NCBI RefSeq assembly: GCF_030546645.1
Contig: NZ_JAUOTO010000002.1
Span: 806,001 to 870,000, forward strand
DNA from: Flavitalea plasmicola
GTDB lineage: Bacteria; Bacteroidota; Bacteroidia; Chitinophagales; Chitinophagaceae
Reading direction: 5' to 3'
Length of the DNA: 64,000 nucleotides
The stretch's first letter is position 1. Each line of letters starts with the position of its first letter. Below, piece after piece: positions 12,132 through 27,933 of the stretch. A program made the position numbers and the translations under genes. The notes beneath the pieces are model-generated. The model saw only the letters and a program-made list of their open reading frames with translations, was not told the origin of the DNA and did not search any database.

Positions 12132-15100
12132 ATGTTCAATATATTTATTAAGCGGCCGGTGCTGTCGCTGGTGATCTCTTTGATCATAGTATTGCTGGGG
12201 ATATTGGCGCTGGTGACCTTACCGGTGACACAATTCCCGGATATCGTACCTCCCTCCGTCACTGTGACAGCCAACTATACGGGCGCCAATGCCCAGGTAT
12301 GCGCCAAAGCCGTCGCCATACCACTGGAAAGGGCCATCAACGGGGTGCCGGGCATGACCTATATGTCAACCGTGTGCAGCAATGACGGGCTCACCGTCAT
12401 CAATATCTATTTCAATGTGGACGTGGACCCCGACCGGGCGGCTGTCAGCGTGCAGAACCGTGTCGCCACCGTCATCGACGAGCTGCCGGAAGAAGTGATC
12501 CGGGCCGGCGTAACGACGGAGAAGGAGGTCAACAGCATGCTGATGTACCTGAATATCATGAGCACCGACAGTACACTGGATGAAAAGTTCATTTATAATT
12601 TCACCGACATCAATATTCTCCAGGAGCTGAAAAGGATAGAAGGCGTGGGCCTCGTCGAGATCATGGGAGCCAAGGAATATTCCATGCGCGTGTGGCTGAA
12701 GCCCGACAGGATGGCATCTTATAAAATTTCCACGGATGAGGTGATCGAGGCCATCCGAAATCAGAACGTGGAAGCCGCGCCTGGCAAGACGGGACTGAGC
12801 TCCGACCGGAGTCCCCAGGCCCTCCAATATGTACTGCGCTATACCGGGAAGTTCTACGAGCCGGAGCAATATGAGAATATCGTAGTCAGGGCCGACCACA
12901 ACGGATCGGTGCTCCGGCTGAAGGAGATCGCCGACGTGGAGTTCGGTTCGCTCACCTACAGCATGGTGTCCAATACGGACGGGAGACCTTCCGCATCCAT
13001 CATGATCAAACAAAGGCCGGGATCCAATGCAAGGGAGGTCATCAGCAGCATCAAGGAAAAGATGGCTGAGCTGAAGAAGATCTCCTTTCCGGCCGGGATG
13101 AGCTATAACATCAACTACGACGTATCCCGGTTCCTGGACGCCTCCATCCATGAAGTGCTGCGCACCCTGGTGGAAGCATTCATCCTGGTCTTTATCGTCG
13201 TTTATATATTTCTGCAGGATTTCCGCAGCACACTGATCCCGGCGCTGGCGGTGCCGGTGGCCCTCATTGGGACCTTGTTCTTTATGCAGATGCTGGGGTT
13301 CTCCATCAACCTGCTGACCTTATTCGCGCTGGTGCTGGCCATCGGGATCGTGGTGGACAATGCCATCGTGGTGGTGGAAGCGGTGCATGTGAAGATGCAG
13401 GAAGAGCATATGAATGCAATGGACGCCACCGTCAGTGCTATGAAGGAGATCAGCGGCGCCATCGTAGCCATTACGCTCGTGATGTCGGCCGTTTTCGTAC
13501 CCGTGGCATTCATGTCTGGCCCGGTGGGAGTTTTCTACCGGCAATTTTCCCTGACACTGGCTTTCGCCATCGTCATCTCTGGCATCAACGCCGTCACATT
13601 GACACCCGCGCTTTGCGCCATCCTGTTGAAGCATACGTCCAGCACGGGTAAAAAGAGCCTGCAACAAAGGCTCTTTATGGGATTCAACCGGCGCTATGAA
13701 GCTTTGTCCCGCCGTTATACCGGCCTCATCGGCAGGATTGCCGCCCGGCGCCTGGTAACCATCAGCCTCCTGCTGGCCTTCTTCGTCGCAGCCTGGGGTT
13801 TCAACGCCATTCTGCCTTCCGGATTCATTCCCACCGAGGATCAGGGACAAATACTTGTCAACGTCACGACCCCTCCGGGATCGACGGTGGAGAGGACAGA
13901 AGCCGTCCTCGCCGAAGTGCAGCGTCGCACGAAAAACATTTCCTCCATTGAATCCGTCTCCACTTTGTCAGGTTATTCACTGGTGACGGAGGTCGCAGGC
14001 GCCTCCTATGGCATGGCCATGATCAACCTGAAGGATTGGAGCGAGCGGAAAGAATCCCTGAAGGAGGTGATACACCAGCTTGAACGGAAGACCCATGATA
14101 TCGCCGACGCCTCGATACAGTTCTTTCCACCTCCGACAGTGCCCGGATTCGGGAATGCCAGCGGCTTCGAGATCCAGCTGCTGGATCGCACAGGCGGAGA
14201 GAACCTGGACAGGACCGCCGGGATCGGCAATAAATTCATCAAAGACCTCAACCAATCTCCCGAGATCGAAGGCGCATTCTCCAGCTTCGACCCAACGTTT
14301 CCCCAATACATGATCTCAGTCGACCAGGCTGTCGCGGCACAAAAAGGAATCTCTATCTTCCGTGCGATGGAGACCCTTCAGTCCCTGGTGGGCAGCTACT
14401 ATACTTCCAACTTCATCCGCTTTGGCCAGTTATATAAAGTGATGATCCAGGCATCGCCGGAATACCGGTCCAGGCCGGAAGATGTGCTGCGCATGCAGAT
14501 AAAGAATGACAAGGGCGAGATGGTTCCTTTCGCCACGTTCATCAAAATGGACAGGATACAGGGCCCCGAACAGATCACCCGCTATAATATGTACACCGCG
14601 GCTATGATCACCGGGGATGCAGCCACCGGGTACAGCAGCGGTGACGCCATCAATTCCATCCGCCGCGCAGGTGAACAGCTGCCGAAAGGATATAGTTTCG
14701 CATGGTCGGGCATGACACGCGAACAGATCCTGTCCGGCAACCAGGCGATCTTCATCTTCCTCATCTGCCTGTTGTTCGTCTACCTGCTCCTGGCCGCCCA
14801 GTACGAGAGCTTTTTGCTGCCCATGCCCGTCATCCTTTCTCTCCCCACCGGCATCTTTGGCGCTTTTTTCTTTTTGAAGGTCACGGGTCTGGAGAATAAT
14901 ATCTATGCCCAGGTAGCGCTGGTAATGCTGATCGGGCTATTGGGCAAAAATGCCATTCTGATCGTGGAATTCGCCGTCCAACGCCAGAAACAAGGTATAG
15001 CCATCCTCATGGCCGCGGTGGAAGGGGCCCGGTCCAGGTTGCGCCCCATCCTGATGACCTCTTTCGCCTTCATTGCCGGCCTGATCCCCTTATGTATCGC

Positions 15101-16676
15101 CAGCGGAGCGGGCGCCATGGGCAACCGCAGCATCGGCACGGCAGCGGCAGGCGGCATGTTGTTCGGAACGATCTTTGGCCTCATCCTCATTCCCGGGCTG
15201 TATGTGATCTTCGCGACCATCGGCGCGCGGAAGAAGAAGCCGAAAGTTACCCCCGCGGTAGCATTGGTGTTACTGGCCGTGATGCTGGCGCCGGGATGTA
15301 CGTCCTACAAAGCTGTCACGATCACGCCGAAACAGGACCTGCCGGCAACCTATGCGGGCGGCACGGATTCTACGGATATTGCGGCATTGACGCCGGCGAA
15401 GTTCTTTTCAGATCCCTACCTGCTCGATCTGATCGATACAGCCCTGGCGGCCAATCCAGACCTGCAATCGGCCCTGCAAAAGATAGAGGTGGCGGGGGCC
15501 AACCTGCAGAACAGCCGTTCCAGCCTGCTCCCCGCCCTCAATGCCGAGATCGGCGCCGCCCTGAGAAAATACAGTGACTACACTATGGACGGCGTGGGCA
15601 ACTTCGATACGAATCTCTCCCCTGATATTAATAAGGACCAGCGTATTCCCAACCCTACCCCGGATTATTTCCTGGGATTCAGGAGCGCATGGGAAGTGGA
15701 TCTCTGGGGCAGGCTGCGTAGCCGCAAAGCAGCGGCCCTGTCAAGGTTCCTGGCCAGCAGGGAAGGTTACAGGATGGTAGTCACCGAACTGGTGTCACAG
15801 GTGGCTACTTTATACTACAAGCTTCTGGCGCTGGACAGACAGCAGCGTATAGTCCGTAAGAATATCCAGCTGCAGGAAAATGCGTTGGAGATCGTCAAGG
15901 CCCAAAAGCTGGGAGGAAGGGCTACCGAGCTGGCCGTACAGCAATTCCAGGCGCAGCTGCTGCATACCCGCGGGCTGCTGTACACCACGTCACAGGAGAT
16001 CACGGAGTCGGAGACCGGCCTCAATTTCCTGCTGGGAGGCTATACGCGGAAAATAGACAGGGACACCTCCATCGCCAGTCTACCGTTGCCTGCGACGCTC
16101 CCGGCGGGTATCCCTTCCCAGCTGCTGCTTCATCGCCCTGATGTCCGGGAAGCAGAGGCGCAGCTCCTGGCGGTGAATGCGGATATCCGCGCGGCCAGGG
16201 CAGCTTTCTTCCCTTCATTGAACCTCTCCGCGTATACGGGTTATAACGCTTTTAAAACAGCCCTGCTGTTCAATCCCGGGTCGATAGCCTACGGATTGAC
16301 CGGAGGCCTCACGGCCCCTATATTCAACCGGAGGGCCATCAAGGCTGATTACACCCACAGCATCGCGGAAGGGCGTCAGGCGCTCTATGCTTATCAGAGA
16401 ACGATCCTCACCAGTTTCAGGGAGGTGACCAATAGTTTAAAAGGTATAGAGAATTACAGCAGGTTCTATGAACTAAAACAGGGCGAAGTGGCATCCCTGA
16501 ACAATGCGGTGTCGGTGGCCAATGACCTTTACCTGGTAGGCAGGGCATCCTACCTTGAAGTGATCACTGCCCAGCGAAATGTGCTGGACGCCGAGCTGGA
16601 CATGACCAACGCCAAAGCCAGCGTTTTCCTGCATGCCGTCAATCTGTATCGTAGTGTTGGCGGGGGCTGGCGGTAG
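12132..16676 (+). CDS. RND efflux pump fused to its outer-membrane factor (AcrB-like plus OprM/NodT-like)
   Basis: One frame of 1514 residues encodes two parts of a tripartite pump. Residues 1 to about 1035 are a full HAE1 RND permease with two groups of six membrane helices and two large periplasmic loops. Helix 4 has D409-N410 where AcrB has D407-D408, and K939 in LLGKNAILIVEF matches AcrB K940. From about residue 1034 a positively charged stretch (RKKKPK), a hydrophobic run and a lipobox ending at C1056 (MLAPGC) form a complete lipoprotein signal. Residues 1057-1514 are a NodT-type TolC homologue. In AcrB-type pumps the C-terminus is cytoplasmic, so the buried signal would carry the outer-membrane part into the periplasm, where signal peptidase II could free it. 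The 3' end overlaps the convergent permease gene by 38 bases. Confidence 0.9.
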   Translation: MFNIFIKRPVLSLVISLIIVLLGILALVTLPVTQFPDIVPPSVTVTANYTGANAQVCAKAVAIPLERAINGVPGMTYMSTVCSNDGLTVINIYFNVDVDPDRAAVSVQNRVATVIDELPEEVIRAGVTTEKEVNSMLMYLNIMSTDSTLDEKFIYNFTDINILQELKRIEGVGLVEIMGAKEYSMRVWLKPDRMASYKISTDEVIEAIRNQNVEAAPGKTGLSSDRSPQALQYVLRYTGKFYEPEQYENIVVRADHNGSVLRLKEIADVEFGSLTYSMVSNTDGRPSASIMIKQRPGSNAREVISSIKEKMAELKKISFPAGMSYNINYDVSRFLDASIHEVLRTLVEAFILVFIVVYIFLQDFRSTLIPALAVPVALIGTLFFMQMLGFSINLLTLFALVLAIGIVVDNAIVVVEAVHVKMQEEHMNAMDATVSAMKEISGAIVAITLVMSAVFVPVAFMSGPVGVFYRQFSLTLAFAIVISGINAVTLTPALCAILLKHTSSTGKKSLQQRLFMGFNRRYEALSRRYTGLIGRIAARRLVTISLLLAFFVAAWGFNAILPSGFIPTEDQGQILVNVTTPPGSTVERTEAVLAEVQRRTKNISSIESVSTLSGYSLVTEVAGASYGMAMINLKDWSERKESLKEVIHQLERKTHDIADASIQFFPPPTVPGFGNASGFEIQLLDRTGGENLDRTAGIGNKFIKDLNQSPEIEGAFSSFDPTFPQYMISVDQAVAAQKGISIFRAMETLQSLVGSYYTSNFIRFGQLYKVMIQASPEYRSRPEDVLRMQIKNDKGEMVPFATFIKMDRIQGPEQITRYNMYTAAMITGDAATGYSSGDAINSIRRAGEQLPKGYSFAWSGMTREQILSGNQAIFIFLICLLFVYLLLAAQYESFLLPMPVILSLPTGIFGAFFFLKVTGLENNIYAQVALVMLIGLLGKNAILIVEFAVQRQKQGIAILMAAVEGARSRLRPILMTSFAFIAGLIPLCIASGAGAMGNRSIGTAAAGGMLFGTIFGLILIPGLYVIFATIGARKKKPKVTPAVALVLLAVMLAPGCTSYKAVTITPKQDLPATYAGGTDSTDIAALTPAKFFSDPYLLDLIDTALAANPDLQSALQKIEVAGANLQNSRSSLLPALNAEIGAALRKYSDYTMDGVGNFDTNLSPDINKDQRIPNPTPDYFLGFRSAWEVDLWGRLRSRKAAALSRFLASREGYRMVVTELVSQVATLYYKLLALDRQQRIVRKNIQLQENALEIVKAQKLGGRATELAVQQFQAQLLHTRGLLYTTSQEITESETGLNFLLGGYTRKIDRDTSIASLPLPATLPAGIPSQLLLHRPDVREAEAQLLAVNADIRAARAAFFPSLNLSAYTGYNAFKTALLFNPGSIAYGLTGGLTAPIFNRRAIKADYTHSIAEGRQALYAYQRTILTSFREVTNSLKGIENYSRFYELKQGEVASLNNAVSVANDLYLVGRASYLEVITAQRNVLDAELDMTNAKASVFLHAVNLYRSVGGGWR

Positions 16677-18078
16677 TACGCTGACCACGAAGGAAATAAT
16701 ACAATGGTATGCCCAGCAGCACAATGCCCAGGCCCGGCCAGGTATATTTCGGTTTGTAGATCAGCAACAGCAGGCAAACACAGCTGGCCAGCAGGATATA
16801 GATCATGGGCAGTACGGGATAACCGAATGCCTTGTAAGGTCTGGCCAGGTAGGGCTTGTTCTTCCGCAGCCGGAAAATACCGATGATGGTAAGGATGTAG
16901 AAGATCAGGACGACGAAGATGACATAGTCCAGCAACTCCCCGTATTTTCCGCTGAGACACAGCAGGGATGCCCAGAGACATTGCATCCACAGCGCTTTGG
17001 CGGGGACGGCATTCTTATTCAGCACCCCTGCCTGGCGGAAGAAAAGGCCGTCCTTTGCCATCGTGTAATACACGCGGGCGCCCGACAGGATCAGCCCGTT
17101 GTTGCATCCGAATGTGGAGATCATCAGGAGCACGGCGATCACCTTGGTGCCGCTGTCGCCGAAGATAAGCTGGGAGGCGGCAACGCCGACGCGGTCATTC
17201 TCCGCGGTAGCTATGGCCTGCATGGGCATGACGTAGACATACATCAGGTTCGTCGCCACATAAATAGTGGTGACGATGAGGGTGCCCAGGAACAGGCTGA
17301 GCCCGATGTTGCGTTCGGGCTTTTTGATCTCTCCCGCGATGAAAGTAACGTTGTTCCAGGAGTCGCTGCTGAACAGACTGCCGACCATGCTGCCGGCGAT
17401 CGCCCCCAGGGCGGCCAGGCCGGTGTAAGGCAATATTTGACCCGCATCCAGCCGCCCCAGCTGAAAGCCAGTGCTCCAGTTGGCGGCAGCGATGTCACGA
17501 TGGGCAGCCAGTAAAAAACCGAAGATCACCAATCCTGCCAGGGCGATGATCTTGGCAAGGGTGAACGTCGTCTGGATCCATTTCCCTTCTTTAACACCCC
17601 GGCTGTTGATCCACGTTAGCACGACGATCAGCAGGATAGCGGTCACCTGGGCAGCTGTGATCCTTAACGTCCCGAGCTCCAGCAGGACATGCTTTTCGCC
17701 CAGGGCGGGAAAAATATAAGCGGTGAACTTGGCAAAAGCCACTCCCACTGCCGCGATACTGCCCGCCTGGATGACGGCGAAAAAGCTCCAGCCGTAAAGG
17801 AAGCCGACCAGCGGATTGAAAGCTTCTTTGAGATAGACATACTGTCCGCCGGCCTTTGGATACATGCCGCTGAGCTCTCCATAGCTGAGGGCCGCCGTCA
17901 GGGTGAGCACTCCCGTCAGGATCCAGACGAGAATGAGCCAGCCAGCGGACCCAACGCTACGGGAGATGTCGGCGCTGACGATAAAAATGCCGGAGCCGAT
18001 CATGGAACCCACGACGATCATCGTGGCATCCAGTAATCCCAGTGACCGTTTGAACTCATGTGCAGGAGCAGAAGACAT
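16639..18078 (-). CDS. APC-family amino acid permease
   Basis: This 479-residue inner-membrane transporter has about twelve helices and starts FKRSLGLLDATMIVVGSMIGSGIF, the classical APC-superfamily helix 1 with the unwound GSMIGSGIF substrate site. The middle contains YPKAGGQYVYLKEAF, the family signature after helix 2. It resembles LAT/YfnA-like basic or neutral amino acid permeases. Its start overlaps the stop of the DapA-like gene by one base (TAATG), implying translational coupling. With the deaminase, dipeptidyl peptidase and D-amino-acid dehydrogenase upstream, it may import hydroxyproline or proline; that substrate is an inference. I started at the ATG at 18078 because of this coupling. 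Confidence 0.88.
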   Translation of the reverse strand: MSSAPAHEFKRSLGLLDATMIVVGSMIGSGIFIVSADISRSVGSAGWLILVWILTGVLTLTAALSYGELSGMYPKAGGQYVYLKEAFNPLVGFLYGWSFFAVIQAGSIAAVGVAFAKFTAYIFPALGEKHVLLELGTLRITAAQVTAILLIVVLTWINSRGVKEGKWIQTTFTLAKIIALAGLVIFGFLLAAHRDIAAANWSTGFQLGRLDAGQILPYTGLAALGAIAGSMVGSLFSSDSWNNVTFIAGEIKKPERNIGLSLFLGTLIVTTIYVATNLMYVYVMPMQAIATAENDRVGVAASQLIFGDSGTKVIAVLLMISTFGCNNGLILSGARVYYTMAKDGLFFRQAGVLNKNAVPAKALWMQCLWASLLCLSGKYGELLDYVIFVVLIFYILTIIGIFRLRKNKPYLARPYKAFGYPVLPMIYILLASCVCLLLLIYKPKYTWPGLGIVLLGIPLYYFLRGQRTTASPRQHYDTD

Positions 18079-19013
18079 TATGCAAAATTTTTCTCTGGTG
18101 AAATGGAAAGGTAATCCGGCAAAGCTGGCCGTGTGGCGACGCATTCGCCGATGATGCTGAGCACCCTCTCCCTTTCCTTACCCACCAGCGTCAAACGGGG
18201 CGCCCGTACGTATTCACTGCCGATGCCAGTCTGCACTTCAGCCAGCTTGATATATTGCACCAGTTTGGGGACGATGTCCAGCTCCAGCACGGGCATAAAC
18301 CAGCGGTAGATGGCCAATGCCTCTTCGATCCTGCCTGCTTTCACCAGCCTGTAGATGGCTACCGTCTCGGCGGGGAACGCGCATACGAGCCCGGCTACCC
18401 ACCCATCGGCGCCCAGCAGCATTTCTTCCATAGCCAGCGTGTCCACCCCGCACAGTATTTTCAGGCGGCCTCCGAAGCGATTGATCATCCTCGTGACATT
18501 GGTTACATCCCGGGTGGATTCTTTCACGGCCTGTATATTGCTGCATTCGAGTAGTTCCTCCCACATATCCAGGGTTACCAGCGTCTTATAATCCACGGGG
18601 TTATTATAGATCATGATGGGAAGGTCTGTGGAATCCGCCACCGTCTTAAAGTAAGTGACGGTCTCGCGGTCATCGGCGGCATACCGCATGGGGGGCAGCA
18701 TCATCAGCCCTTCGGCGCCCCAGTTCTTCGCATCGGCCGCCAGCTGCAAGGCGTCCCGGGTAGCGCTTTCCGCAATATTCAGCACGATGGGCACAGCGCC
18801 CTCCACTTTCTCAATAGCGAATTTTACCAGTCTTTCTTTTTCAGCGTACGTAAGCACGCTGGCCTCACCCAGGCTGCCGCCTAATATAACCCCGTCGACA
18901 CCGGACGCTATCTGCAGACGAAGGTTCTTTTCAAACAATGGGAGGTCCAGTTCATCTTTTGCTGTGAATTTCGTTGTGAGTGCGGGAAATACACCTTTCC
19001 AAACAATTGACAT
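18078..19013 (-). CDS. DapA-family lyase, probably 1-pyrroline-4-hydroxy-2-carboxylate deaminase
   Basis: This 311-residue enzyme belongs to the class I aldolase family of dihydrodipicolinate synthase and N-acetylneuraminate lyase. The signature GGSLGE is at residues 45-50, the catalytic tyrosine is Y136 in IYNNP, and the Schiff-base lysine is K164 in AVKEST. A biosynthetic DapA normally has the GTTGE form and sits among lysine genes. Here the neighbours are a DadA-like dehydrogenase, a proline-type dipeptidyl peptidase and an amino acid permease. This is the context of the hydroxyproline pathway, where the enzyme deaminates the pyrroline product to 2-oxoglutarate semialdehyde. The family is certain; the substrate is inferred from neighbours. 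Confidence 0.75.
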   Translation of the reverse strand: MSIVWKGVFPALTTKFTAKDELDLPLFEKNLRLQIASGVDGVILGGSLGEASVLTYAEKERLVKFAIEKVEGAVPIVLNIAESATRDALQLAADAKNWGAEGLMMLPPMRYAADDRETVTYFKTVADSTDLPIMIYNNPVDYKTLVTLDMWEELLECSNIQAVKESTRDVTNVTRMINRFGGRLKILCGVDTLAMEEMLLGADGWVAGLVCAFPAETVAIYRLVKAGRIEEALAIYRWFMPVLELDIVPKLVQYIKLAEVQTGIGSEYVRAPRLTLVGKERERVLSIIGECVATRPALPDYLSISPEKNFA

Positions 19014-19031
19014 AATTTAAATTTTATAGAC

Positions 19032-21146
19032 TTATAATTCATTGCTATTACGTAGGGGCGGATCGACACCCAGCAGGTGCTTCACAAAAAAGTCCCTCCT
19101 TTTCACCCGGCCATAAGGTCCCCCGTCCGTGTGATCGCTGCCGGGCAAAGGCAGGAAATCGAAGGTCTTGCCCGCTTTTATCAAGGCATCCGCCACCCTG
19201 TAGGTGGATTCCGGCGGCACATTGGTATCGGCCTCTCCCACCATGAGGAGCAGATCTCCTCTCAGTTTGGCAGCATTCGTCACATTCGACTGTTCATCGT
19301 AGTGTTTGCCTGCAGGATAGCCCATCCATTGCTCATTCCACCACTGCTTATCCACACGATTGTCGTGGCATCCGCAGGAGGAGACGGCGGCCTTGTAAAA
19401 CTCACCATGGAATAACAGACCTCCCAGGGAGTTCTGCCCGCCTGCGGACGTTCCGTACAGTCCCACGCGGCCAGTGTCGACATACGGATATTTTGCCGCC
19501 AGGGCCTTGATCCATAGGATCCTGTCGGGGAAACCCGCATCGGCGAGGTTCTTCCAGCATACATCGTGAAATGCCTTGCTCCTGTTGGCAGTACCCATAC
19601 CGTCGATCTGGACCACGATAAAACCCAGCTGTGCGATGCTCTGCATCTCTCCATAGCGGCTGGTGAAATCCTTTGGAACAAAGGAAGCCTGGGGACCTGC
19701 ATAAATATTTTCCACCACCGGGTATTTTTTCGCCGGATCGAAGTCGGCAGGCCTGCATACGACACCCCAGATATCCGTGACACCATCCCGGCCTTTCGCA
19801 TGAAAGGGCTCGGGGAACCGCATACCCGTTGCCAGGTAGGCCGATGCATCCGCCGACTCCAGGTCCATGACCTTTTTAGCATCCGCCGTACGGTGCAAGG
19901 TTATTTCCGTAGGTACGTTGATCTCGGAAGCAGCGTCGATGTAATATTTCTTATCGGGCGAGAAGCTGACGATATGATTGGCTTTGGATGGCGTCAGGCT
20001 TACCAGCCGCCGTCCGTCAAAACCGATGCGGTAATAGTGGATATAGTAAGGGTCTTCCTCCGGGTTCATGCCACTGGCGGAAAACCAGATCTCTCTTTTT
20101 TTGACATCGATGCTATCGATGTCCCGTACGATCCATGCGCCGCGGGTCACCTGTTGCTTTGTCAGCCCCGTCATGGCATCCAGCAGATAAAGATGCCGCC
20201 AGCCGTCCTTTTCGGAGGTCATCAGCATCTCGCCCGTTTCCGGAAGATAATGGGTGTAGAGCCGGGACTCATAAATAAAGGTAGGGGTCTGCTCGTCATA
20301 CAGCGTCCGGGTAGCCGCCGTCTGCGCATCCACTTCGATGACCCGGAAACGCTGGTGCCCCCTGTCCACCTTTTCATACGTAAAATAGCGGCTGTCCTTT
20401 TGCCGCCAGTGCAGCTGGGGTGATCCGAAAAAATCTATCAGGGGCGTATTGACCTTTAGGGCTTTGCCGCCGGCAACGGGAAAAAGATACATTTCGTAGG
20501 TGGTAAAAGGATCGCCGGGTTGTTTGTAGGGATGCTGACGCAGCTGCCCCCTTGTTCCCCCCGCGGAAGACAGGACGTAGTATACGGCTGAATCCTTTAC
20601 CGGGTGGATATGATACCCTACTACATATTTGCTGTCGGGAGACCATGCCAGCTCCCCGTAAGGTTTTTTCTCATCGCCGTCCGTGGTATAGGGGACAGGG
20701 TCGCCGCCTGCCGTGGGCCGGATGAATACATTACCGTCCTTTATATAAGCCACGAATTGTTTGTCCGGGGAAGTGCTGTCAGTGTGAAAATCCGCCCACC
20801 GGGACCAGTCCCGGTCGTAAAAGGGGCGCCGCCGGGCGCTATCCCTGCCCAGGCTGTCAGTAAATGCGCGGGTAACCTTGGTTTTCGTGCCTTTTTCGGC
20901 GTCTACGAAGAAATATTCCTGGACGGAATCCTTTAAGATATTACGGTACCAGAAACTTTTCCCTCCTGCCTGCCAATGGGCCTGGACGGATGCCTTGAAG
21001 ATCGTGCGGGTAGCCAGGCTATCCAGCACTTTGGCCTTGCGGTATCGATCCATGATCTCAGCCCTGGACGGCTGGTAAGGCTGTTGCGCATCCGATGCAA
21101 TAAATAAGGTCAGTACCTGAAAATATAACAGGCAGAATTTTCTCAT
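19032..21146 (-). CDS. Secreted S9B dipeptidyl peptidase IV-like serine peptidase
   Basis: This 704-residue exported protein has a signal peptide (MRKFCLLYFQVLTLFIASDA), an N-terminal beta-propeller (about residues 60-450) and a C-terminal alpha/beta-hydrolase domain. The catalytic triad is visible: S567 in YGTSAGGQ, D640 in VGEADTN and H672 in GSDHTDGG. The DPP-IV family removes X-Pro (and often X-Hyp or X-Ala) dipeptides from peptide N-termini. It lies in the operon between the D-amino-acid dehydrogenase (47-base gap) and the DapA-like gene (18-base gap). This points to proline- or hydroxyproline-rich peptides as food. It probably acts in the periplasm. Confidence 0.88.
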   Translation of the reverse strand: MRKFCLLYFQVLTLFIASDAQQPYQPSRAEIMDRYRKAKVLDSLATRTIFKASVQAHWQAGGKSFWYRNILKDSVQEYFFVDAEKGTKTKVTRAFTDSLGRDSARRRPFYDRDWSRWADFHTDSTSPDKQFVAYIKDGNVFIRPTAGGDPVPYTTDGDEKKPYGELAWSPDSKYVVGYHIHPVKDSAVYYVLSSAGGTRGQLRQHPYKQPGDPFTTYEMYLFPVAGGKALKVNTPLIDFFGSPQLHWRQKDSRYFTYEKVDRGHQRFRVIEVDAQTAATRTLYDEQTPTFIYESRLYTHYLPETGEMLMTSEKDGWRHLYLLDAMTGLTKQQVTRGAWIVRDIDSIDVKKREIWFSASGMNPEEDPYYIHYYRIGFDGRRLVSLTPSKANHIVSFSPDKKYYIDAASEINVPTEITLHRTADAKKVMDLESADASAYLATGMRFPEPFHAKGRDGVTDIWGVVCRPADFDPAKKYPVVENIYAGPQASFVPKDFTSRYGEMQSIAQLGFIVVQIDGMGTANRSKAFHDVCWKNLADAGFPDRILWIKALAAKYPYVDTGRVGLYGTSAGGQNSLGGLLFHGEFYKAAVSSCGCHDNRVDKQWWNEQWMGYPAGKHYDEQSNVTNAAKLRGDLLLMVGEADTNVPPESTYRVADALIKAGKTFDFLPLPGSDHTDGGPYGRVKRRDFFVKHLLGVDPPLRNSNEL

Positions 21147-21193
21147 GTTGGCTGTTTTATTATTTGGGTCGCTCCATTCTTTACCCGGATCTT

Positions 21194-22447
21194 TTACCCG
21201 AACCGTTCGACTGCAAAAGGCCGCAGGTCGATGCTTGTCGCCTGTTCACCGATCAGCTCGCTCACCAGCTTCCCCGTGCCGGCGCCCAGACTCAATCCCA
21301 GCATGGAATGGCCGGTGGCAATGACCACATTATCATAACTTTTTATCCGCCCGATATACGGCAGGCCGTCCGCCGAACAGGGACGATACCCATACCATAT
21401 TTTCTCCTTCGGCGGCATCGGAACATCGAACTCCGGAAAGAACTGCCTCACTGCATTGAGGATGCCCTGCACGCGGCTATACCGTGGAGGGGTATCCGTA
21501 GACGTCACCTCCATCGTTCCTCCAAACCTTATCTTATTACCATCCATCGGCGTAATAGCAGCCCTTCCTTCCACCAGGATCGCCGGATAGTTGACATGGT
21601 AGGGCGAATCCTCCAGTGTGACGGAATAACCACGTCCCGGCATCAGCGGAAGACGCGTATCCAGCTGCGCCGCCAATTCCCTGCTCCAGGAACCAGTTGC
21701 CAGCACGACGGCGGAAGCCGTATATGCCTGCCGGGTGGTGATGACCCTCTTTACGGCCCCATTGGCCGTCTCGAAGCGAATGACTTCTTCGTCAGGCACC
21801 AGGGTCACGCCCCGCTCCCGCAGCACGGCGATCAGCGAATGCATCAGCCGGTCGGGATAAAGGTGCGCATCGCACTTAAAGAAAATAGCTCCCAATCCAT
21901 TTATCCTGGTATGCGGCTCTTTTGCCTGCAGCGCTTCATAGGACAGCATCGTGGCATCCAATCCTATTTGCTGTGCCTTCTCCACCGTGTGGTGCGCATG
22001 CTCCGCGGCGGCCCGGGTCTGGAAAATTTCCAGCAGTCCCTTATGCTCGTACGCCACGTCAAATGCAGGAGTGGAAAACCAGTTCTTCTCATACTCCTGC
22101 TGGCTCAGCAGCGCTATGTCCCTAAGAGGAATAGCAGATCTTTCCACATGCTGTTTTGTGGCGCTTTTCATGAATTTCAGTCCCCATTCTATCAGTGATC
22201 TGCTGAGGCGGGGCTGCACATAAAAAGGGCTTTGAGCGTTCAGCATCCATTTCAGACCCTGTCGCACTATCCCGGGAGTAGCCAATGGGATAAAATGACT
22301 GGGACATACATACCCACAATTGCCGTATGAGCAGTTGTCAAGGAAATCGGATCTTTCCAATACAGTGACACTATATCCTGCCTGTTGTAAATAATACGCG
22401 GAGCTTAGTCCAATGATCCCGCCTCCGACGACGATGACATTTTCCAT
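21194..22447 (-). CDS. FAD-dependent D-amino-acid dehydrogenase (DadA-like), possible D-hydroxyproline dehydrogenase
   Basis: This 417-residue flavoprotein of the DAO family starts MENVIVVGGGIIGLSSAYYL, with the FAD-binding GGGIIG close to the N-terminus. Further landmarks are the RSDFLDNCSYGNCGYVCPSHF stretch and the C-terminal GHSMLGLSLGAGTGKLVSELI. It oxidises a D-amino acid and passes electrons to the respiratory chain or oxygen. The combination with a DapA-like deaminase is the arrangement of cis-4-hydroxy-D-proline dehydrogenase in hydroxyproline catabolism. It is the first gene of a leftward four-gene operon and is divergent from the AraC regulator. The ATG at 22447 is preferred to a codon five residues upstream because the Rossmann strand then starts at residue 3. 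Confidence 0.8.
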   Translation of the reverse strand: MENVIVVGGGIIGLSSAYYLQQAGYSVTVLERSDFLDNCSYGNCGYVCPSHFIPLATPGIVRQGLKWMLNAQSPFYVQPRLSRSLIEWGLKFMKSATKQHVERSAIPLRDIALLSQQEYEKNWFSTPAFDVAYEHKGLLEIFQTRAAAEHAHHTVEKAQQIGLDATMLSYEALQAKEPHTRINGLGAIFFKCDAHLYPDRLMHSLIAVLRERGVTLVPDEEVIRFETANGAVKRVITTRQAYTASAVVLATGSWSRELAAQLDTRLPLMPGRGYSVTLEDSPYHVNYPAILVEGRAAITPMDGNKIRFGGTMEVTSTDTPPRYSRVQGILNAVRQFFPEFDVPMPPKEKIWYGYRPCSADGLPYIGRIKSYDNVVIATGHSMLGLSLGAGTGKLVSELIGEQATSIDLRPFAVERFG

Positions 22448-22576
22448 TCTCAAAATTACCACTCCCCGTCAAGGTTGGCTGCATAGGATTTGACCTCATG
22501 TAGCAGTATTTTAACCACTTTTTTCCTCATTTTGACCCATGGGTGATAATATCCGCAAAATTCGTATATTCGGAAC

Positions 22577-23455
22577 ATGAAAGTATTGCAATTCACCATT
22601 CCTGTTCCCCACGATAAGACTGTCATCGTGCAGAAGGATGTTTTGCCGCATTTCTATCCGCATCTTCACCGTCACCAGGAGATCCAGCTTACCTGGATCC
22701 AGCAGGGCGAGGGCACGCTGGTTGCAGAAAACAACATGCATGCTTTCCGGCCGAACGAGATCTATTGGCTGGGGGCCAACCTTCCCCATATCTTCAAAAG
22801 CGACCCCTCTTATTTTGCACCCAAGAGCCGCAAAAAAGTGCAGACCCTGAACATTTTCTTCAACACCAAGGGGCATCTCGATTCCTTTTTCGATCTTCCC
22901 GAAGTGAAGAATGTAAAAAATTTCCTGCAGAACCAACAGTCCGGATTTAAAGTACCCGCGGAGCATGTCGCGGAAATATCCAATAAGATGCTGGTGATCC
23001 AGAACAGCACCGGCGTCGACCAGCTGATCCATTTTATCGAACTACTGAAGGTTCTCAGCAATTTCCATGAGCTGCCGCCCCTCTCTTCCTGCTCCCAGCC
23101 GGCTGCATACAGTGAACATGAAGGAATCCGCATCGGCGCTATCTATAATTTTATTATGCAGCAATATGACAAGCCCATTACGCTGGAAGATGCTGCCAAG
23201 CAGGCCCATATGACGCCCCAGGCCTTCTGCCGTTATTTCAAAAAGCATACGATGCATACTTTTGTCTCTTTTCTCAATGAAGTACGCATCAATGAGGCCT
23301 GCAAGAAGCTCACGGACGGGAATTATGACAGCATCGCCACCGTGGCTTACAATTGCGGGTTCAACAGTATCACTAACTTCAACCGGGTATTTAAGAGCGT
23401 TACACGCAAATCGCCGAGTAATTATGTGGAGAGCTTCTTTCAGAATGTGGAGTGA
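22577..23455 (+). CDS. AraC-family transcriptional regulator with cupin sensor
   Basis: This 292-residue regulator has an N-terminal cupin-like sensor domain (FYPHLHRHQEIQLTWIQQGEGTLVAENNMHAFRPNEIYWLGANLPH) and a C-terminal pair of helix-turn-helices. The HTH region runs from about residue 185 (GAIYNFIMQQYDKPITLEDAAKQAHMTPQAFCRYFKKHT) to the AraC signature near the end (YDSIATVAYNCGFNSITNFNRVFKSVTRKSPSNY). It is divergent from the DadA-like, peptidase, deaminase and permease operon, with 129 bases between the starts. It therefore probably controls that operon in response to an amino acid or sugar ligand. The other possible target is the GH127 gene 460 bases downstream on the other strand. Confidence 0.9.
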   Translation: MKVLQFTIPVPHDKTVIVQKDVLPHFYPHLHRHQEIQLTWIQQGEGTLVAENNMHAFRPNEIYWLGANLPHIFKSDPSYFAPKSRKKVQTLNIFFNTKGHLDSFFDLPEVKNVKNFLQNQQSGFKVPAEHVAEISNKMLVIQNSTGVDQLIHFIELLKVLSNFHELPPLSSCSQPAAYSEHEGIRIGAIYNFIMQQYDKPITLEDAAKQAHMTPQAFCRYFKKHTMHTFVSFLNEVRINEACKKLTDGNYDSIATVAYNCGFNSITNFNRVFKSVTRKSPSNYVESFFQNVE

Positions 23456-23492
23456 GTTTTTGGATTCTCCGCCTGGTCGCCAGCCCTGACCG

Positions 23493-23821
23493 TTCCGTCG
23501 CTGTACTTTCCATCTCCGATCATTATTATTACTACTGTAAGCGACAACTATGGCCGGGCATCAACATATATCCCCTACCGTATGAAAGTAAGGCTCCTTC
23601 ACGGTAGGGCATGGCTTAGTCCCCGTCTCCGCGCATTTGCCTATCATCTAAATGATCATACATAATTTTGTCCCGCGGCTCGCCCCCTCCGCGGGCCAGT
23701 CGGTCAGCCATAGCCTGGAGAAGCCTTACTTTCGGCTAGTGCATTCAGGCACTATCGCTAAATTGAAGAACCGCCCAGCCACGATCAAATGCCCAGTGGT
23801 GCCGAAAGTACAGCGCCGGAA
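23493..23821. repeat. Nested palindromic element in a 460-base gene-free gap
   Basis: The gap 23456-23915 has no credible gene. Bases 23493-23510 pair with 23804-23821 as an inverted repeat of 17 out of 18 (core CGCTGTACTTTC and GAAAGTACAGCG). Inside, GAAAGTAAGGCT (23584-23595) is inverted at 23722-23733. At the centre is ATGATCAT (23652-23659). All three share nearly the same centre of symmetry near 23656-23658. Smaller hairpins lie within: a 9-base stem at 23573-23581 with 23601-23609, and TAGTGC/GCACTA at 23737-23754. TACTTTC/GAAAGTA thus occurs four times in alternating orientation. It may be a mobile palindromic element or a structured RNA. Bases 23822-23915 hold only short GC-rich hairpins. 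Confidence 0.6.
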
Positions 23822-23915
23822 GGGAACTTCGTCGGAGCTGCTTCGACACGCTCCTCCTCGCTCGTAACCTTCGCTTCGTTCGGTTATAGCTGCCGACAAC
23901 GCAAAAAAGTGCAGC

Positions 23916-26279
23916 TCACTCCCTCACCATCCTGATCGTCCCGAACACCGGGCCCACAGCATTGCGCGGCGAAGAAGCCGCAAACTTCACTGTCACGGCC
24001 GTCTTGCCTTTCAGCAGCTCCTGTGGCACAGGATATTTTATCTCATAGAACTTACTCTCTTTAAAACCGTTGAGGTCCTGCGTAGCAATGGTCTGACCGT
24101 CCACCTGGATATTGAATATGCGGCCGCGGTGGTCGGAGCCCCAGTACGAGCAGATCAGGGTATTGCCTGCGGACGGGTCGACTTTCATGGTAAAGGAAAA
24201 GCTGCCCCCGTTCTCCGAGGAGCGCCATTTTTGTCCATGCTCTTCTCCAGTCTGCAATTCTTCCCCTGTAAAATTGTGGTCCCGCTCCGGCTGCATCTCT
24301 CCCAGGCGCAGCCTGTCGATGGTCCGGTCTTCCAGTTCCTGCCGCTTCCTTCTTTCCTCCTGGTATTGGTCCTGCCGCGCCGTCCAGCCATCAGGAGTAA
24401 AGCGGTCCCAGTAGACACTATAATATTCGTTCTTCGTCCTGTTGAATGGAATGAGCTCCACGTCACCGGGCTGCCCCACGTTGGCGGTCCGGAATACCAG
24501 GCCTTCCCTTTTTATCCATTTGTTGGGGTCCTTTTCGCCAGTGACGAGGACAGGAACGCCTTTCAGCGGATCGGGTTCTGTATTTCCAAACAGGCCGGCC
24601 AGCAGTACGGGACCATAGAACAAGGCAATACGGTCGGCATTGTCTGGCATCGACTCCGTGTAAAATGATTCCGGCAAGTGGATCGTGACCTTGTCATTAT
24701 TGCTCCACTTACGATCGATGGCTATGTATCCGTCCGGTCCGGGTCGTATATTTTTGAAAGGGCTGCCATTAATGGTAACGCTGATGCCTTGTGTCGCCCA
24801 TGCGGGCTTGCGGATGCGCAGGGTGAAAGGAGCAGCCTTCTTCGAGGTCGTAAAGATCAGCTGCACGCTGTCTCCGGCGGGCAGCTGGGTCCGCTGTTCG
24901 ATGGTGAAGCCCTTTTCTTTCCAGCTGAGACGGGACGGAATGAAAAGATTGACATACAAGCTGCCATCCTTACCCCGGAAATAAATGCTTTCCCCATATT
25001 TGACATGGTTTTCCATTCCGGAGCCCACACAGCAGGTGAAAGTGTTGAAAGAGTCGCTGTACTCCTTGCGGGTGCCCATGCGCAGCGGAACAAAATAGCA
25101 CATCATGCCCGTCTCATGGTTCTGGGAAGAAAGGATATGATTGTACAGCCCTTTTTCATAATAGTCCATCAGGGACGCATCCGGATGCCAGGAGAACAAA
25201 TGCCGCGTCAGCTTCAGCATATTGTACGTATTGCAGGTCTCGGTCGTATTGTCCGTCAAATAATCGTTGAGCTTGCGGGCAGCGCCGAGGTATTCGTAGT
25301 TGCTGTTGCCGCCCGTGGCATAGGAATGGTCGTTCACCACCGTCCGCCAGAAAAATGCGGCAATGGTGCTGTCCTTATCATCTCCTGTCAGCTCATAACG
25401 CCGGGCGCAGCCGATGGCTTTGGGGATCTGTGTGTTGGAGTGCTTGCCGGGAAGATCGTCCAGCCCTTTGGAAAGGGAGTCCAATATGCGGCGGTCGTGG
25501 AATTTATAGGAAAGGTCAAGATATTTCTTTTCCCCGGTGATAGCGTAGGTATTGACGAGCACCTCATTCATGCCGCCATACTCGCAGGCCAGCATCTTCT
25601 GCACCAGCGAGTCGTTTAAATGACCGACAACGGACGCCGTCCAGTCGGCCATGCTTTTTTCCACCTGGAGAGCTTTGGCATTATCGCAATAGAGGAAGGC
25701 GTCCAGCAGGCCTGCCATAACTTTATGCACCGTGTACCAGGGAGACCAGGCGCCGTTGAGGTCGAAGCCCCTGCTGCGGATCTTACCCGCGGCCACTTCC
25801 ATCCAGAGACTGTCTTCCCTGGGAATGGCGCCCACATAGCCCGACTTACGCGCCGTCTGGCAGATGGCCAGCTCGTCTACGATATAGTTCACCCGCTGCA
25901 GGTATTTTTCATCGCCGGTGGAAGCATATTCCATGGCACAGGCCGAGATATAATGACCGAGCGTATGGCCGGCCAGCCCGGAGGACTCCCATCCCCCATA
26001 TTTCGTTCCCTTTGGCGCCAGCCCGGAATGTACCCTGAAATCCGACAGCAGCCTGTCAGGTTCCACCTGCAGCAGATAACGGGCGTCGGCCTCCATCGCT
26101 TCTTTAAAGGGGCCATCCAGCAATCGTACATCTCTGATATCAAACGGATAAGCTGCCATGGGCGTCACCGGCGTGACCTTCATGGCCTTTCCGCCATACT
26201 CCGGCACGTAGGATTGTGCGTAAGTACCCGAGGCAGAAAGGATCGCGAGGAAAAAGAGCGGTAAATAGTATTTGTTCAT
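23916..26279 (-). CDS. Secreted GH127 beta-L-arabinofuranosidase
   Basis: This 787-residue enzyme has a signal peptide (MNKYYLPLFFLAILSASGTYA) and a GH127 (alpha/alpha)6 barrel beginning at PFDIRDVRLLDGPFKEAMEAD. The zinc-thiolate centre of the family is visible: E347 and C349 in TETCNTYN, and C416-C417 in TFTCCVGSGME, with the second pair holding the cysteine nucleophile. The C-terminus has beta domains and an added jelly-roll ending in GTIRMVRE. The founding enzyme HypBA1 removes beta-L-arabinofuranose from hydroxyproline-linked oligosaccharides of extensin; other members act on pectin side chains. It starts one base before the M1 peptidase stop region, so both are probably co-transcribed. 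The neighbouring hydroxyproline-type operon makes the extensin role attractive. Confidence 0.88.
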   Translation of the reverse strand: MNKYYLPLFFLAILSASGTYAQSYVPEYGGKAMKVTPVTPMAAYPFDIRDVRLLDGPFKEAMEADARYLLQVEPDRLLSDFRVHSGLAPKGTKYGGWESSGLAGHTLGHYISACAMEYASTGDEKYLQRVNYIVDELAICQTARKSGYVGAIPREDSLWMEVAAGKIRSRGFDLNGAWSPWYTVHKVMAGLLDAFLYCDNAKALQVEKSMADWTASVVGHLNDSLVQKMLACEYGGMNEVLVNTYAITGEKKYLDLSYKFHDRRILDSLSKGLDDLPGKHSNTQIPKAIGCARRYELTGDDKDSTIAAFFWRTVVNDHSYATGGNSNYEYLGAARKLNDYLTDNTTETCNTYNMLKLTRHLFSWHPDASLMDYYEKGLYNHILSSQNHETGMMCYFVPLRMGTRKEYSDSFNTFTCCVGSGMENHVKYGESIYFRGKDGSLYVNLFIPSRLSWKEKGFTIEQRTQLPAGDSVQLIFTTSKKAAPFTLRIRKPAWATQGISVTINGSPFKNIRPGPDGYIAIDRKWSNNDKVTIHLPESFYTESMPDNADRIALFYGPVLLAGLFGNTEPDPLKGVPVLVTGEKDPNKWIKREGLVFRTANVGQPGDVELIPFNRTKNEYYSVYWDRFTPDGWTARQDQYQEERRKRQELEDRTIDRLRLGEMQPERDHNFTGEELQTGEEHGQKWRSSENGGSFSFTMKVDPSAGNTLICSYWGSDHRGRIFNIQVDGQTIATQDLNGFKESKFYEIKYPVPQELLKGKTAVTVKFAASSPRNAVGPVFGTIRMVRE

Positions 26280-26280
26280 T

Positions 26281-27933
26281 TTACTTTATAGCTATGTAGT
26301 ACATTTTGAGAATCGCTGTCTTGTCGAATAATGCGGCCTGTCCTTCCCTGAGCGCGCTGGTCTTCCATGTTTCGGAAGGGAAGATCTTTATATGGGCGTC
26401 GCCGTTGCGGAGGGCCAGGGGAAGGTCAAAGCCGGGCACACAGCCGACCCATCTGTAAGTTACTTGTTTTGCATCATCGCTGATGCGATATTCCAGCTCG
26501 GGCACCTGTGTGGTACGAAGGTATTGATCAAAGACCTTTCCATAATCGAACCCAGCCTGCTGTGAAAAGTAATGTTCTATCTGCCGGGTGGTGACCGTCT
26601 GATGATAAAAGGTACGGTTCATGCCCCGCAGGATCTGTCTGAACAGGGAGTCATTGTCCATGCTATGCCGGATGGCGTGCAGCATATTGCCGCCTTTGGG
26701 ATACATATCTCCGCTGCCCTGGTCGTTGACATTGTATTGGGCGATGATGGGACGGTCATTACGTATACCTTTACGGATGCCTGCATTATACTCATTGGCG
26801 GCATCTTTCCCCCACATATAGTCGATGAACAGTGTTTCGCTGTAATTCGTATAGCCCTCGTGCACGTACATGTCGGCCAGGTCTTTCGTGGTGATGTTGT
26901 TACCGAACCATTCATGACCGCTCTCGTGGATGATGATGAAGTCCCATTTCAGTCCCCAGCCCGTGCCGGAGCCATCCCTGCCCCTGTACCCGAAGGCATA
27001 ATGGTTCCCGTATGCCACGGCGCTCTGGTGTTCCATGCCCGTATGCTGAACGTCTATCAGCTTATATCCATCTTCGTAAAAAGGATAGGGGCCAAACCAG
27101 TGTTCCATGCTGTGCAGCATATTATGCACTTGTTCCGGCATATAAGCTTTTGCCTTCCCCAGGTTGTAATCCAACACCCAATAGTCAAGGTCAAGGTGCC
27201 CTTTCTCGCCCTGGAAGTCTTCGTGGAAGCTGACATATTTCCCGATGTAAGGTATGATGCAGTAGTTGCTGATGGGATTAATGACAGCCCATTTCCAGGA
27301 AGTGGTGCCGTCGCCGTTGCTCTTTGAAAACTGAAGCCTGCCATTGGCGACAGCCACCAGGCTATCCGGCGCTATCATGGTCAGGGAGGCGCCTTTATCC
27401 GGCTCGTCGCTCTGGTGATCCTTGCAGGGATACCACAATGAAGCGCCCAATCCCTGACATGTCACTGTCATCCAGGGACGCCCCAGAGAATCTTTGGCGA
27501 AGGTCCATCCCCCACTCCATGGCGGGCGGGTGCTTTCATGCGGCGTGCCTGAAAAAAACACTTCGACAACAGCAGTAGTTCCTTTTTTTTGATGCAGGGC
27601 CTGCACATGCCAGACATTCCCTTCCCTGGTAAAGCTCAGTCGCCGCCGGCCATTATAGATGACACTGTCGACATGCAACGGCTCCTGCAGGTCCAGCTGC
27701 ATGGCCGGCTGTCGATCGCCCACCACTTTATAAGTGATGCAGTTGGTCCCCTGCGTGGATTTTGTAATAAAGTCCGGCCGGACGGTGATATCATATCGCA
27801 GCACATCCCACCAGGTCCGTTCGGCGTTGAGAGAGCCTCTCAGCGTATCTGCATGCGTAAAGACCTTTGTCTGCGGCAGACCTGCGAGAGGTACCCAGAT
27901 GAAAAGTAACCATATACCGATCCTGTGCGTCAA
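26281..27933 (-). CDS. Secreted M1-family zinc aminopeptidase
   Basis: This is a roughly 550-residue gluzincin peptidase. The zinc motif HESGH is at residues 336-340 with the third ligand E359 in YVHEGYTNY, and the exopeptidase motif is GMEHQ, in place of GAMEN. An N-terminal beta-saddle (residues 30-260) precedes the catalytic domain. The start is unclear: the signal-like segment THRIGIWLLFIWVPLAGLPQ is preceded by TTG at 27933 but no ATG. The only ATG in frame, at 28053, would add 40 residues in front of the signal. I used the TTG. It lies directly upstream of the GH127 gene on the same strand, which suggests joint use of glycopeptides. It trims amino acids from peptide N-termini in the periplasm. 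Confidence 0.82.
   Translation of the reverse strand: MTHRIGIWLLFIWVPLAGLPQTKVFTHADTLRGSLNAERTWWDVLRYDITVRPDFITKSTQGTNCITYKVVGDRQPAMQLDLQEPLHVDSVIYNGRRRLSFTREGNVWHVQALHQKKGTTAVVEVFFSGTPHESTRPPWSGGWTFAKDSLGRPWMTVTCQGLGASLWYPCKDHQSDEPDKGASLTMIAPDSLVAVANGRLQFSKSNGDGTTSWKWAVINPISNYCIIPYIGKYVSFHEDFQGEKGHLDLDYWVLDYNLGKAKAYMPEQVHNMLHSMEHWFGPYPFYEDGYKLIDVQHTGMEHQSAVAYGNHYAFGYRGRDGSGTGWGLKWDFIIIHESGHEWFGNNITTKDLADMYVHEGYTNYSETLFIDYMWGKDAANEYNAGIRKGIRNDRPIIAQYNVNDQGSGDMYPKGGNMLHAIRHSMDNDSLFRQILRGMNRTFYHQTVTTRQIEHYFSQQAGFDYGKVFDQYLRTTQVPELEYRISDDAKQVTYRWVGCVPGFDLPLALRNGDAHIKIFPSETWKTSALREGQAALFDKTAILKMYYIAIK

Follow-up and report, generated by a model that had tools for sequence, protein, structure and literature searches.

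The window analysed here is a 64,000-nt stretch of Flavitalea plasmicola DNA (NZ_JAUOTO010000002.1), and coordinates are window positions unless a contig is named. A sequence-only reading had described seven open reading frames in it; each lies where it was placed and each functional label has backing from Pfam. Together with a predicted operator, the features are:

16639-18144, minus strand: amino acid permease, predicted importer of hydroxyproline (Hyp) or Hyp-peptides; PF13520, 202 bits
18078-19013, minus strand: DapA-like protein, predicted 1-pyrroline-4-hydroxy-2-carboxylate deaminase (HypD); PF00701
19032-21146, minus strand: S9 peptidase with an N-terminal signal-like stretch (by eye); PF00326 and PF00930
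21194-22462, minus strand: DadA-like FAD dehydrogenase, predicted cis-4-hydroxy-D-proline oxidase/dehydrogenase; PF01266, 233 bits
22487-22537, minus strand: predicted AraC operator with three GGTTAAWAT-type half-sites at 21-bp spacing; profile score 28.6 bits
22577-23455, plus strand: AraC-family regulator, divergent to DadA; PF12833
23916-26279, minus strand: GH146-like enzyme with a signal-like stretch (by eye) and a C-terminal DUF6805; PF07944/PF20736/PF20620
26281-28053, minus strand: M1 metallopeptidase, one unit with the GH146 gene; PF01433

Four of these genes, DadA-S9-DapA-permease, had been proposed to form a leftward operon, and the intergenic gaps of 47 and 18 bp together with one overlap agree with this. 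The glycosidase and M1 genes are neighbours of the operon as described, but they constitute a separate unit that is convergent with AraC. A Pfam search between positions 16639 and 28053 found no SusC/SusD pair. GH39, LacI, KduI and MFS genes lie near the cluster.

Identity of the window enzymes

The DapA-like protein contains the K164 and GGSLGE (residues 45-50) noted previously. Its phylogenetic placement had been set as a test of the original proposal. In the tree it shares one clade with HypE-adjacent proteins, apart from lysine enzymes (E. coli DapA among them) and sialic acid enzymes, which excludes lysine DapA or NanA as its identity. Thr-Thr and Arg are active-site residues of lysine-biosynthetic DapA; here they are replaced by GGSLGE and YNNPVDYK, and the genome encodes another DapA, at locus L006, that does have TT and R. 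The window protein is of the hydroxyproline-cluster type. A second copy, DapA2 (L013), is 72% identical to it; it adjoins Gfo/Idh and is followed by SusC-/SusD-like genes, with HypE located elsewhere. The DadA-like protein is without a close paralogue in the genome and is 43% identical to the FAD oxidoreductase adjoining HypE on a Spirosoma plasmid.

The S9 protein had been called a DPP-IV-type peptidase. DPP-IV binds the substrate N-terminus with a double-Glu motif, D-W-x-Y-E-E. The window protein has the DPPIV_N and Peptidase_S9 domains and a GTSAGG serine motif, but D-W-x-Y-E-E is missing from it and from its L015 ortholog, so that canonical DPP-IV is rejected and the specificity label is withdrawn. 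L015 and L016 each have a further S9 gene, and that one contains DWAYEEE. In both loci, whose records are named Puia dinghuensis, orthologs of the window S9 gene (74-75% identity) lie between DadA and DapA. The substrates of the window enzyme may be Pro/Hyp peptides outside the cytoplasm. The M1 label holds, as PF01433 and HEXXH-18-E are both present, and partial orthologs (67-70%) are located near GH146 in L015 and L016. Aminopeptidase P genes were found in L110 and L123.

The PF07944 glycosidase, earlier labelled GH127, is GH146-like, scoring 522 bits to 5OPJ and 36 to HypBA1 (3WKW). GH127 proper was rejected from the latter score and from the lack of the GH127 C-terminal domain PF20737, which is present in a GH127 enzyme of the same genome (at C14) that is unlinked to the window. 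The nearest solved structure, 5OPJ, is presumably the entry of BT0349. According to PMC10850190, BT0349 is the GH146 founder and an arabinan-directed enzyme encoded in a rhamnogalacturonan-I locus, and the E-x-C and CC pattern supplies zinc ligands of both GH127 and GH146. The window enzyme keeps E-x-C (347) and CC (416), aligned with 5OPJ, and is predicted to be a GH146-like beta-L-arabinofuranosidase. A Xanthomonas enzyme, today in GH146, frees arabinose from Ara-Hyp (PMC6085000 and PMC10850190).

In a tree of the linked proteins longer than 440 aa (which leaves out partial genes such as those of L069, L092 and part of L114), the best 60 of 123 unlinked places by score and the genome's own 6 others, the window enzyme's clade (support 1.00) comprises every Hyp-linked GH146-type protein plus seven unlinked members. 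Three of the seven (L136, L144 and L145) are from HypE-less genomes (G063, G070 and G007), so membership of the clade does not imply use of Hyp.

Hydroxyproline genes in the genome and its relatives

The epimerase and semialdehyde dehydrogenase had been noted as outside the window, and both are adjacent on another contig (C18:86563-89067). HypE, on this contig 18, is single copy (one PF05544 protein in the genome) and scores 595 bits against the NCBI 4-hydroxyproline epimerase model PRK13971, for which the cut-off is 376. The adjoining aldehyde dehydrogenase is 45% identical to the enzyme of the S. meliloti pSymB Hyp cluster. The trans-4-hydroxy-L-proline pathway is assigned to the DAAO, DHDPS and aldehyde dehydrogenase superfamilies in PMC4113996. 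A DAAO-superfamily oxidase, a DHDPS-superfamily deaminase and an aldehyde dehydrogenase are all present here, linked to or co-occurring with HypE. DapA and HypE occur in the identical 39 of 79 Chitinophagaceae genomes, at a distance of 10 kb or less in 33 of the 39, and DadA has a match in 38 of these HypE genomes and in three without HypE. At least one of ALDH, HypE and DadA is found in 73 of 80 DapA loci, though contig ends cut many loci; other Hyp genes are absent from the remaining 7. The same 80 loci include the permease family (PF13520) in 13 and an AraC-family member in 31. Hydroxyproline catabolism is well supported for this genome. Three pairs of loci hold the same DNA, taken from two collections (L017/L111, L055/L126 and L075/L114), and were left out of counts where it matters.

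The expectation that GH127/GH146 genes lie beside Hyp genes in relatives was borne out in a good share of them, far more often than chance would give. A PF07944 gene is located within 5 kb of HypE in at least 14 of the 39 genomes, compared with 0.28 expected from uniform placement with contig breaks ignored; the linkage counts are lower bounds drawn from 150 PF07944 places. As a control, proline dehydrogenase lies within 15 kb of a listed PF07944 gene in none of the 47 genomes with both. In 20 of the 39 HypE genomes, every listed PF07944 match lies more than 20 kb from the Hyp genes or is absent. PF07944 is present in 33/39 genomes with HypE and 14/40 without it (Fisher p 9e-6), a comparison for which genome size is a confounder and which is given no weight here. 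GH146 lies within the Hyp operon in L047, L110, L117, L121 and L125; in L121 and L125 the order AraC|DapA-ALDH-HypE-permease-GH146-DadA forms a single operon, and the permease is inside the Hyp operons of L047, L121 and L125. The Spirosoma plasmid carries together SusCD, AraC, DapA, HypE, an FAD oxidoreductase, two GH127 genes, a permease and DUF885. Judged by DapA identity (92%), the closest relative is L014; it retains DadA-DapA-permease, and no S9, M1 or GH146 genes are found at this place in it.

A shared repeat upstream of dispersed genes

A direct repeat with a 21-bp period lies upstream of DadA. Spacing of 21 was found in 20 of 38 distinct AraC-upstream regions, compared with five or fewer at each of the other spacings between 12 and 33; the loci are not independent, since clustering at 80% identity leaves 7 of the 20 non-window sites. 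With three duplicates still included the count stood at 21/41, set against a single simple shuffle for each locus and spacing. A plain k-mer search run ahead of the spacing test had given unclear lists.

An operator profile was built from the 7 sites of other genomes; the window was not used. Within the F. plasmicola genome it scores 28.6 bits at the DadA promoter (the top score in the DNA scanned), 26.0 at ALDH-HypE, 24.5 at GH127-ASD1 and 21.7 at DapA2. The ASD1 neighbour of this GH127 gene encodes a predicted alpha-L-arabinofuranosidase of ASD1/GH51-like type. Another match, of 22.9 bits in L006, precedes no gene on its strand, and no score of 20 or more was obtained in 14 arbitrarily placed stretches of the genome. 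An operator before M1-GH146 was rejected, the best score there being 0.9. The 21-bp repeat is probably an AraC operator, and the window regulator is the candidate protein that would bind it.

A probable regulon for arabinosylated hydroxyproline

The earlier suggestion of hydroxyproline glycoprotein utilization gains support from the shared occurrence of DapA and HypE, the GH127/GH146 linkage and the presence of epimerase and dehydrogenase in the genome. The locus is likely to be part of a dispersed, AraC-controlled regulon for trans-4-hydroxyproline. The likeliest source of this amino acid would be arabinose-bearing hydroxyproline-rich glycoproteins of plants (or algae); that the substrate is arabinosylated we infer. 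Here, SusCD proteins would import glycopeptides, and arabinose would be removed from hydroxyproline by beta- and alpha-L-arabinofuranosidases, namely the window GH146 and the GH127 and ASD1/GH51-like enzymes encoded elsewhere. Peptides would be trimmed by the S9 and M1 peptidases and hydroxyproline taken up via the permease. HypE may then form cis-4-hydroxy-D-proline, which the DadA-like enzyme would oxidize. The DapA-like enzyme would convert this product to 2-oxoglutarate semialdehyde, and the dehydrogenase beside HypE would yield 2-oxoglutarate. We give even chances to a more specific model, in which one AraC regulator senses Hyp status via the 21-bp-repeat operator and co-induces scattered loci for amino acid catabolism, SusCD glycopeptide importers and alpha/beta-L-arabinofuranosidases. 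Such a PUL-like system would feed on the Hyp aglycone as well as on its arabinose, an arrangement that would recur in Chitinophagaceae and on the Spirosoma plasmid.

Three other explanations were weighed. The genome might catabolize Hyp only, free or from collagen/gelatin peptides, with GH146-M1 as an unrelated pectic arabinan neighbour. Consistent with this are the lack of an own operator at M1-GH146, the missing GH146-M1 in L014, the arabinan-type BT0349 as nearest structure, the three clade members from HypE-less genomes and the nearby GH39, LacI, KduI and MFS genes, which suggest pectin-like sugars. However, the excess of PF07944 genes beside HypE, the five operons with an internal GH146 and the operator on the unlinked GH127-ASD1 operon argue against it, and we consider it unlikely. 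Somewhat less improbable, and a rival to be taken seriously, is the use of arabinogalactan-proteins (AGP), where Hyp bears type II arabinogalactan and the glycan is dismantled by GH39, KduI/SDR and further glycosidases. GH30, GH43 and GH2 genes follow DadA in L125, and these families include galactan- and glucuronide-acting enzymes. In addition, a GH39 gene and a KduI/SDR/MFS cassette immediately follow DapA in Puia dinghuensis and are found close to it in the window, and a Bifidobacterium GH39 enzyme acts on gum arabic AGP (PMC8939339). The recurrent partners, however, are beta-L-arabinofuranosidase-family and alpha-L-arabinofuranosidase-like proteins and peptidases. The AGP and extensin readings are compatible.

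It is very improbable that the substrate of DapA and DadA is a different imino acid or a sugar acid and that their link to HypE is incidental. DapA-family specificities are diverse, the window protein is only distantly similar to its S. meliloti cluster counterpart (28% identity), and DapA2 lies away from HypE; against this stand the common distribution and proximity of DapA and HypE and the shared operator at the HypE-ALDH promoter.

In the favoured regulon a pathway already known is joined to new partners, and the operator repeat was newly found here. To our knowledge, bacterial recycling of extensins and other Hyp-rich wall proteins has been little studied. The papers considered here treat arabinose-removing enzymes without Hyp utilization. 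That beta-L-arabinofuranosidase families and Hyp catabolism recur together, with one predicted operator in common, makes this a testable question. The pairing also points to roles for GH146/GH127 subclades, DUF885 and S9/M1/M24 peptidases, and it could serve as a genomic marker of glycoprotein turnover.

The trans-4-hydroxyproline cluster of S. meliloti pSymB (L127), known as the hyp locus, encodes HypE, an FAD oxidoreductase, a DapA-like protein and an aldehyde dehydrogenase. All four classes are represented in F. plasmicola, with HypE 66% and the dehydrogenase 45% identical, whereas DapA and DadA (compared with the cluster oxidoreductase) are 28% identical each. In this genome they are divided between two or more loci, AraC takes the place of GntR, a PF13520 permease that of an ABC importer, and glycosidases and peptidases are attached. 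The HypBA1/HypBA2/HypAA system of Bifidobacterium longum and Xanthomonas similarly combines beta-L-arabinofuranosidases for Hyp-linked arabinose with an alpha-arabinofuranosidase, but PMC6085000 and PMC7263609, as far as considered here, describe no Hyp catabolic enzymes with it, while sugar-removal and Hyp-breakdown genes adjoin here. BT0349 of Bacteroides thetaiotaomicron resembles the window enzyme in overall score, the aligned E-x-C and CC, and a C-terminal extension; it derives from a rhamnogalacturonan-I locus (PMC10850190), whereas the window enzyme is in a clade enriched beside Hyp genes. As in SusCD polysaccharide utilization loci, several relatives and the Spirosoma plasmid have SusC-/SusD-like proteins next to the cluster; unlike those loci, the catabolic core here is for an amino acid and the window unit is without SusCD.

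Hydroxyproline enzymes and the window locus

Hydroxyproline (Hyp) catabolism is well supported in this 8.73 Mb genome, in which the window spans G000:C12:806001-870000. The genome encodes one PF05544 protein, which scores 595 bits against the NCBI 4-hydroxyproline epimerase equivalog (cut-off 376); its identity to the epimerase of the S. meliloti pSymB cluster is 66%. The gene for this epimerase (HypE) adjoins an aldehyde dehydrogenase gene on contig 18, whose product is 45% identical to its counterpart in that cluster. The sequence-only reading had placed the epimerase and semialdehyde dehydrogenase outside the window, and as both classes were found on contig 18, all four Hyp enzyme classes are in the genome, at split loci.

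ORF and Pfam analysis bore out the ORFs and families read at the window locus. Genes for DadA-like, S9 peptidase, DapA-like and permease proteins run leftward in that order, with small intergenic gaps and one overlap, and an AraC gene is divergent from this DadA-led unit. An M1 peptidase gene followed by a PF07944 glycosidase gene forms one unit, convergent with AraC.

The DapA-like protein was placed using FastTree with 45 relatives and 11 other proteins, the root being our choice. It clusters with HypE-adjacent proteins of Spirosoma (63%) and Sphingomonas (46%), in a group that includes a 46% Rhizobium protein with no HypE within its examined stretch. E. coli DapA, NanA and YagE sit elsewhere in the tree, as do this genome's lysine DapA and NanA-like proteins; the S. 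meliloti cluster protein (28%) falls on the window protein's side of the chosen root. This grouping speaks against a lysine DapA or NanA identity, so that the phylogenetic check proposed earlier came out with HypE-adjacent proteins and not with lysine or sialic acid enzymes. The Thr-Thr and Arg that serve as active-site residues in lysine DapA are missing from the protein. Among the best 80 DapA loci of a longer match list, many cut by contig ends, the dehydrogenase was present in 64, HypE in 44, DadA in 34, AraC in 31 and the permease in 13; at least one of the first three was found in 73. A fatty-acid-hydroxylase-like gene lies on the opposite strand in or near the Hyp cluster in 28 of these 80 loci (for example L031 10925-12199).

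Among named records, DapA similarity is highest in a Chitinophagaceae MAG (L014, 92%), followed by two records called Puia dinghuensis (L015, 82%; L016, 79%), which suggests a Puia-like member of the Chitinophagaceae. L015 is largely syntenic with window 2488-28053; it has one more S9 peptidase, lacks the RND unit and permease at this place, and carries GH39, LacI, SDR, KduI and MFS genes downstream of DapA. Other features are as follows.

Window 3973-10560: the GH39, LacI, SDR, KduI and MFS cassette, directly downstream of DapA in Puia dinghuensis and here separated from it by the RND pump unit and permease
Window 12132-16676, + strand: 1514-aa ORF in which an AcrB-type RND transporter and an outer membrane efflux (OEP) domain are fused and which has an internal lipobox-like stretch (by eye); identical in length and 86% identical in L014
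Window 28038-29720, + strand: orphan of 560 aa that looks secreted and matches no Pfam family, conserved partly in L014 and weakly in L074
Window 33026-62000: SusC/SusD-like stretches with NAGLU, fucosidase, PL8-like lyase and GH130
L134 9001-13016 (Rhizobium leguminosarum plasmid): gene for a DapA-like protein (46% identity to that of the window), close to a gene with a beta-L-arabinofuranosidase domain amid sugar ABC transporter genes

The glycosidase and its linkage to Hyp genes

The window glycosidase retains E-x-C and CC. It had been labeled GH127; the scores (522 bits against 5OPJ, 36 against HypBA1) favor GH146, and by sequence it is GH146-like. In a tree of 110 proteins (107 distinct), it falls in a clade of 28 tips with support of 1.00, comprising the window enzyme, 20 Hyp-linked proteins (19 distinct) and 7 unlinked ones, 3 of which come from genomes without HypE. 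Within the family sample, Hyp-linked tips made up 12/19 inside this clade versus 14/67 outside (p 0.0012). The genome has six further PF07944 proteins.

Linkage was assessed in an even sample of 79 family genomes (thresholds: HypE 1e-50, DapA 1e-70, DadA 1e-60). HypE and DapA occur in the same 39 genomes, within 10 kb of each other in 33, and DadA occurs in 38 of these and in 3 others; PF07944 was found in 47 of the 79, among the matches listed. In at least 14 of the 39, a PF07944 gene lies no more than 5 kb from HypE, where uniform placement, ignoring contig breaks, expects 0.28 (P ~4e-21); in at least 16 the distance is no more than 15 kb, versus 0.73 expected on uniform placement. As a control, among 47 genomes that carry the two, none had proline dehydrogenase within 15 kb of PF07944, the nearest distance being 45 kb (among the matches listed). 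The linkage proposed for relatives was found in part of them: in at least 19 of the 39 genomes, this one included, PF07944 lies no more than 10 kb from HypE, DapA or DadA, but 20 show no link among the matches listed.

Neighborhoods were surveyed in 20 stretches from 18 family genomes and in the 80 DapA loci. Glycosidase partners are GH146-type, GH127-type, ASD1/GH51-like alpha-L-arabinofuranosidase domains and a GH5/GH2-like protein; other partners are DUF885, aminopeptidase P, further S9 peptidases and SusC/SusD-like proteins. GH30, GH43, GH2, a glutaminase-like protein and others were each seen at single loci. One stretch (L121) holds a compact operon with AraC, then DapA-dehydrogenase-HypE-permease-GH146-DadA, another (L125) repeats that order, and a 240-kb plasmid of Spirosoma oryzicola carries SusCD, AraC, DapA, HypE, an FAD oxidoreductase, two GH127, a permease and DUF885.

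A candidate AraC operator

For AraC regulators, direct repeats spaced by about 21 bp are frequent binding sites. Upstream of the AraC orthologs is a direct repeat, GGTTAAWAT-N12-G(A/G)TTAnnAT; at spacing 21, a score of 15/18 or higher is reached in 20 of 38 distinct regions, and no other spacing between 12 and 33 gives more than 5. An initial count, three duplicates included, gave 21 of 41, and a shuffled control (one per region) gave 0 at 21. Seven sites that differ from one another, taken from other genomes and with the window excluded, served to build a profile, which was scanned across the available stretches of this genome.

28.6 bits: 46 bp before DadA, with a third half-site
26.0 bits: 57 bp before the dehydrogenase-HypE operon
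24.5 bits: 41 bp before a GH127 gene (C14:859k), which is followed by an ASD1/GH51-like gene
21.7 bits: 50 bp before a second DapA gene, 72% identical to the window's, with its own operator-like repeat (L013 2675-10068; G000:C12:1046675-1054068)

These are the top scores in the stretches scanned, aside from a match of 22.9 bits in L006 with no same-strand gene after it. Fourteen arbitrarily placed stretches of the genome (556,388 positions, both strands) gave no match of at least 20 bits and 3 of at least 17. Across multiple loci, 53 matches reached 20 bits, some being training-set sites or resembling them; 43 precede a labeled Hyp, SusC, GH127, DUF885 or AraC gene and 10 have none downstream. 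The profile scan found no operator-like site upstream of the M1-GH146 unit. The second DapA gene is followed by genes whose products resemble Gfo/Idh/MocA, SusC and SusD proteins, and no HypE was seen near it in L013.

Substrate and known systems

Because of the neighboring genes and the GH127-ASD1 operon with the common predicted operator, we infer that the Hyp would be arabinosylated. A role of the putative peptidases in the use of Hyp glycopeptides is plausible. Extensin-type arabinosides fit best as the source of Hyp; arabinogalactan proteins (AGP) are a possible source, as are collagen peptides.

The locus had been thought undescribed, and the literature searched, with partial coverage, yielded no paper pairing Hyp catabolic genes with GH127 or GH146 in Bacteroidota. 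Hyp gene neighborhoods have been defined in general, and the part of that paper available mentions peptidases near one proline-racemase-superfamily cluster (PMC4113996). In Latescibacteria, extensin use was inferred from GH127, and the available part of that account describes no Hyp operon (PMC4454575). Among characterized enzymes, XeHypBA1 acts on Ara-Hyp and was called GH127 (PMC6085000, in the part available), its family being GH146 according to the available part of PMC10850190, which also gives Bll4HypBA1 as a GH146 enzyme acting on Ara-Hyp. BT0349 is likewise a GH146 enzyme, but serves arabinan.
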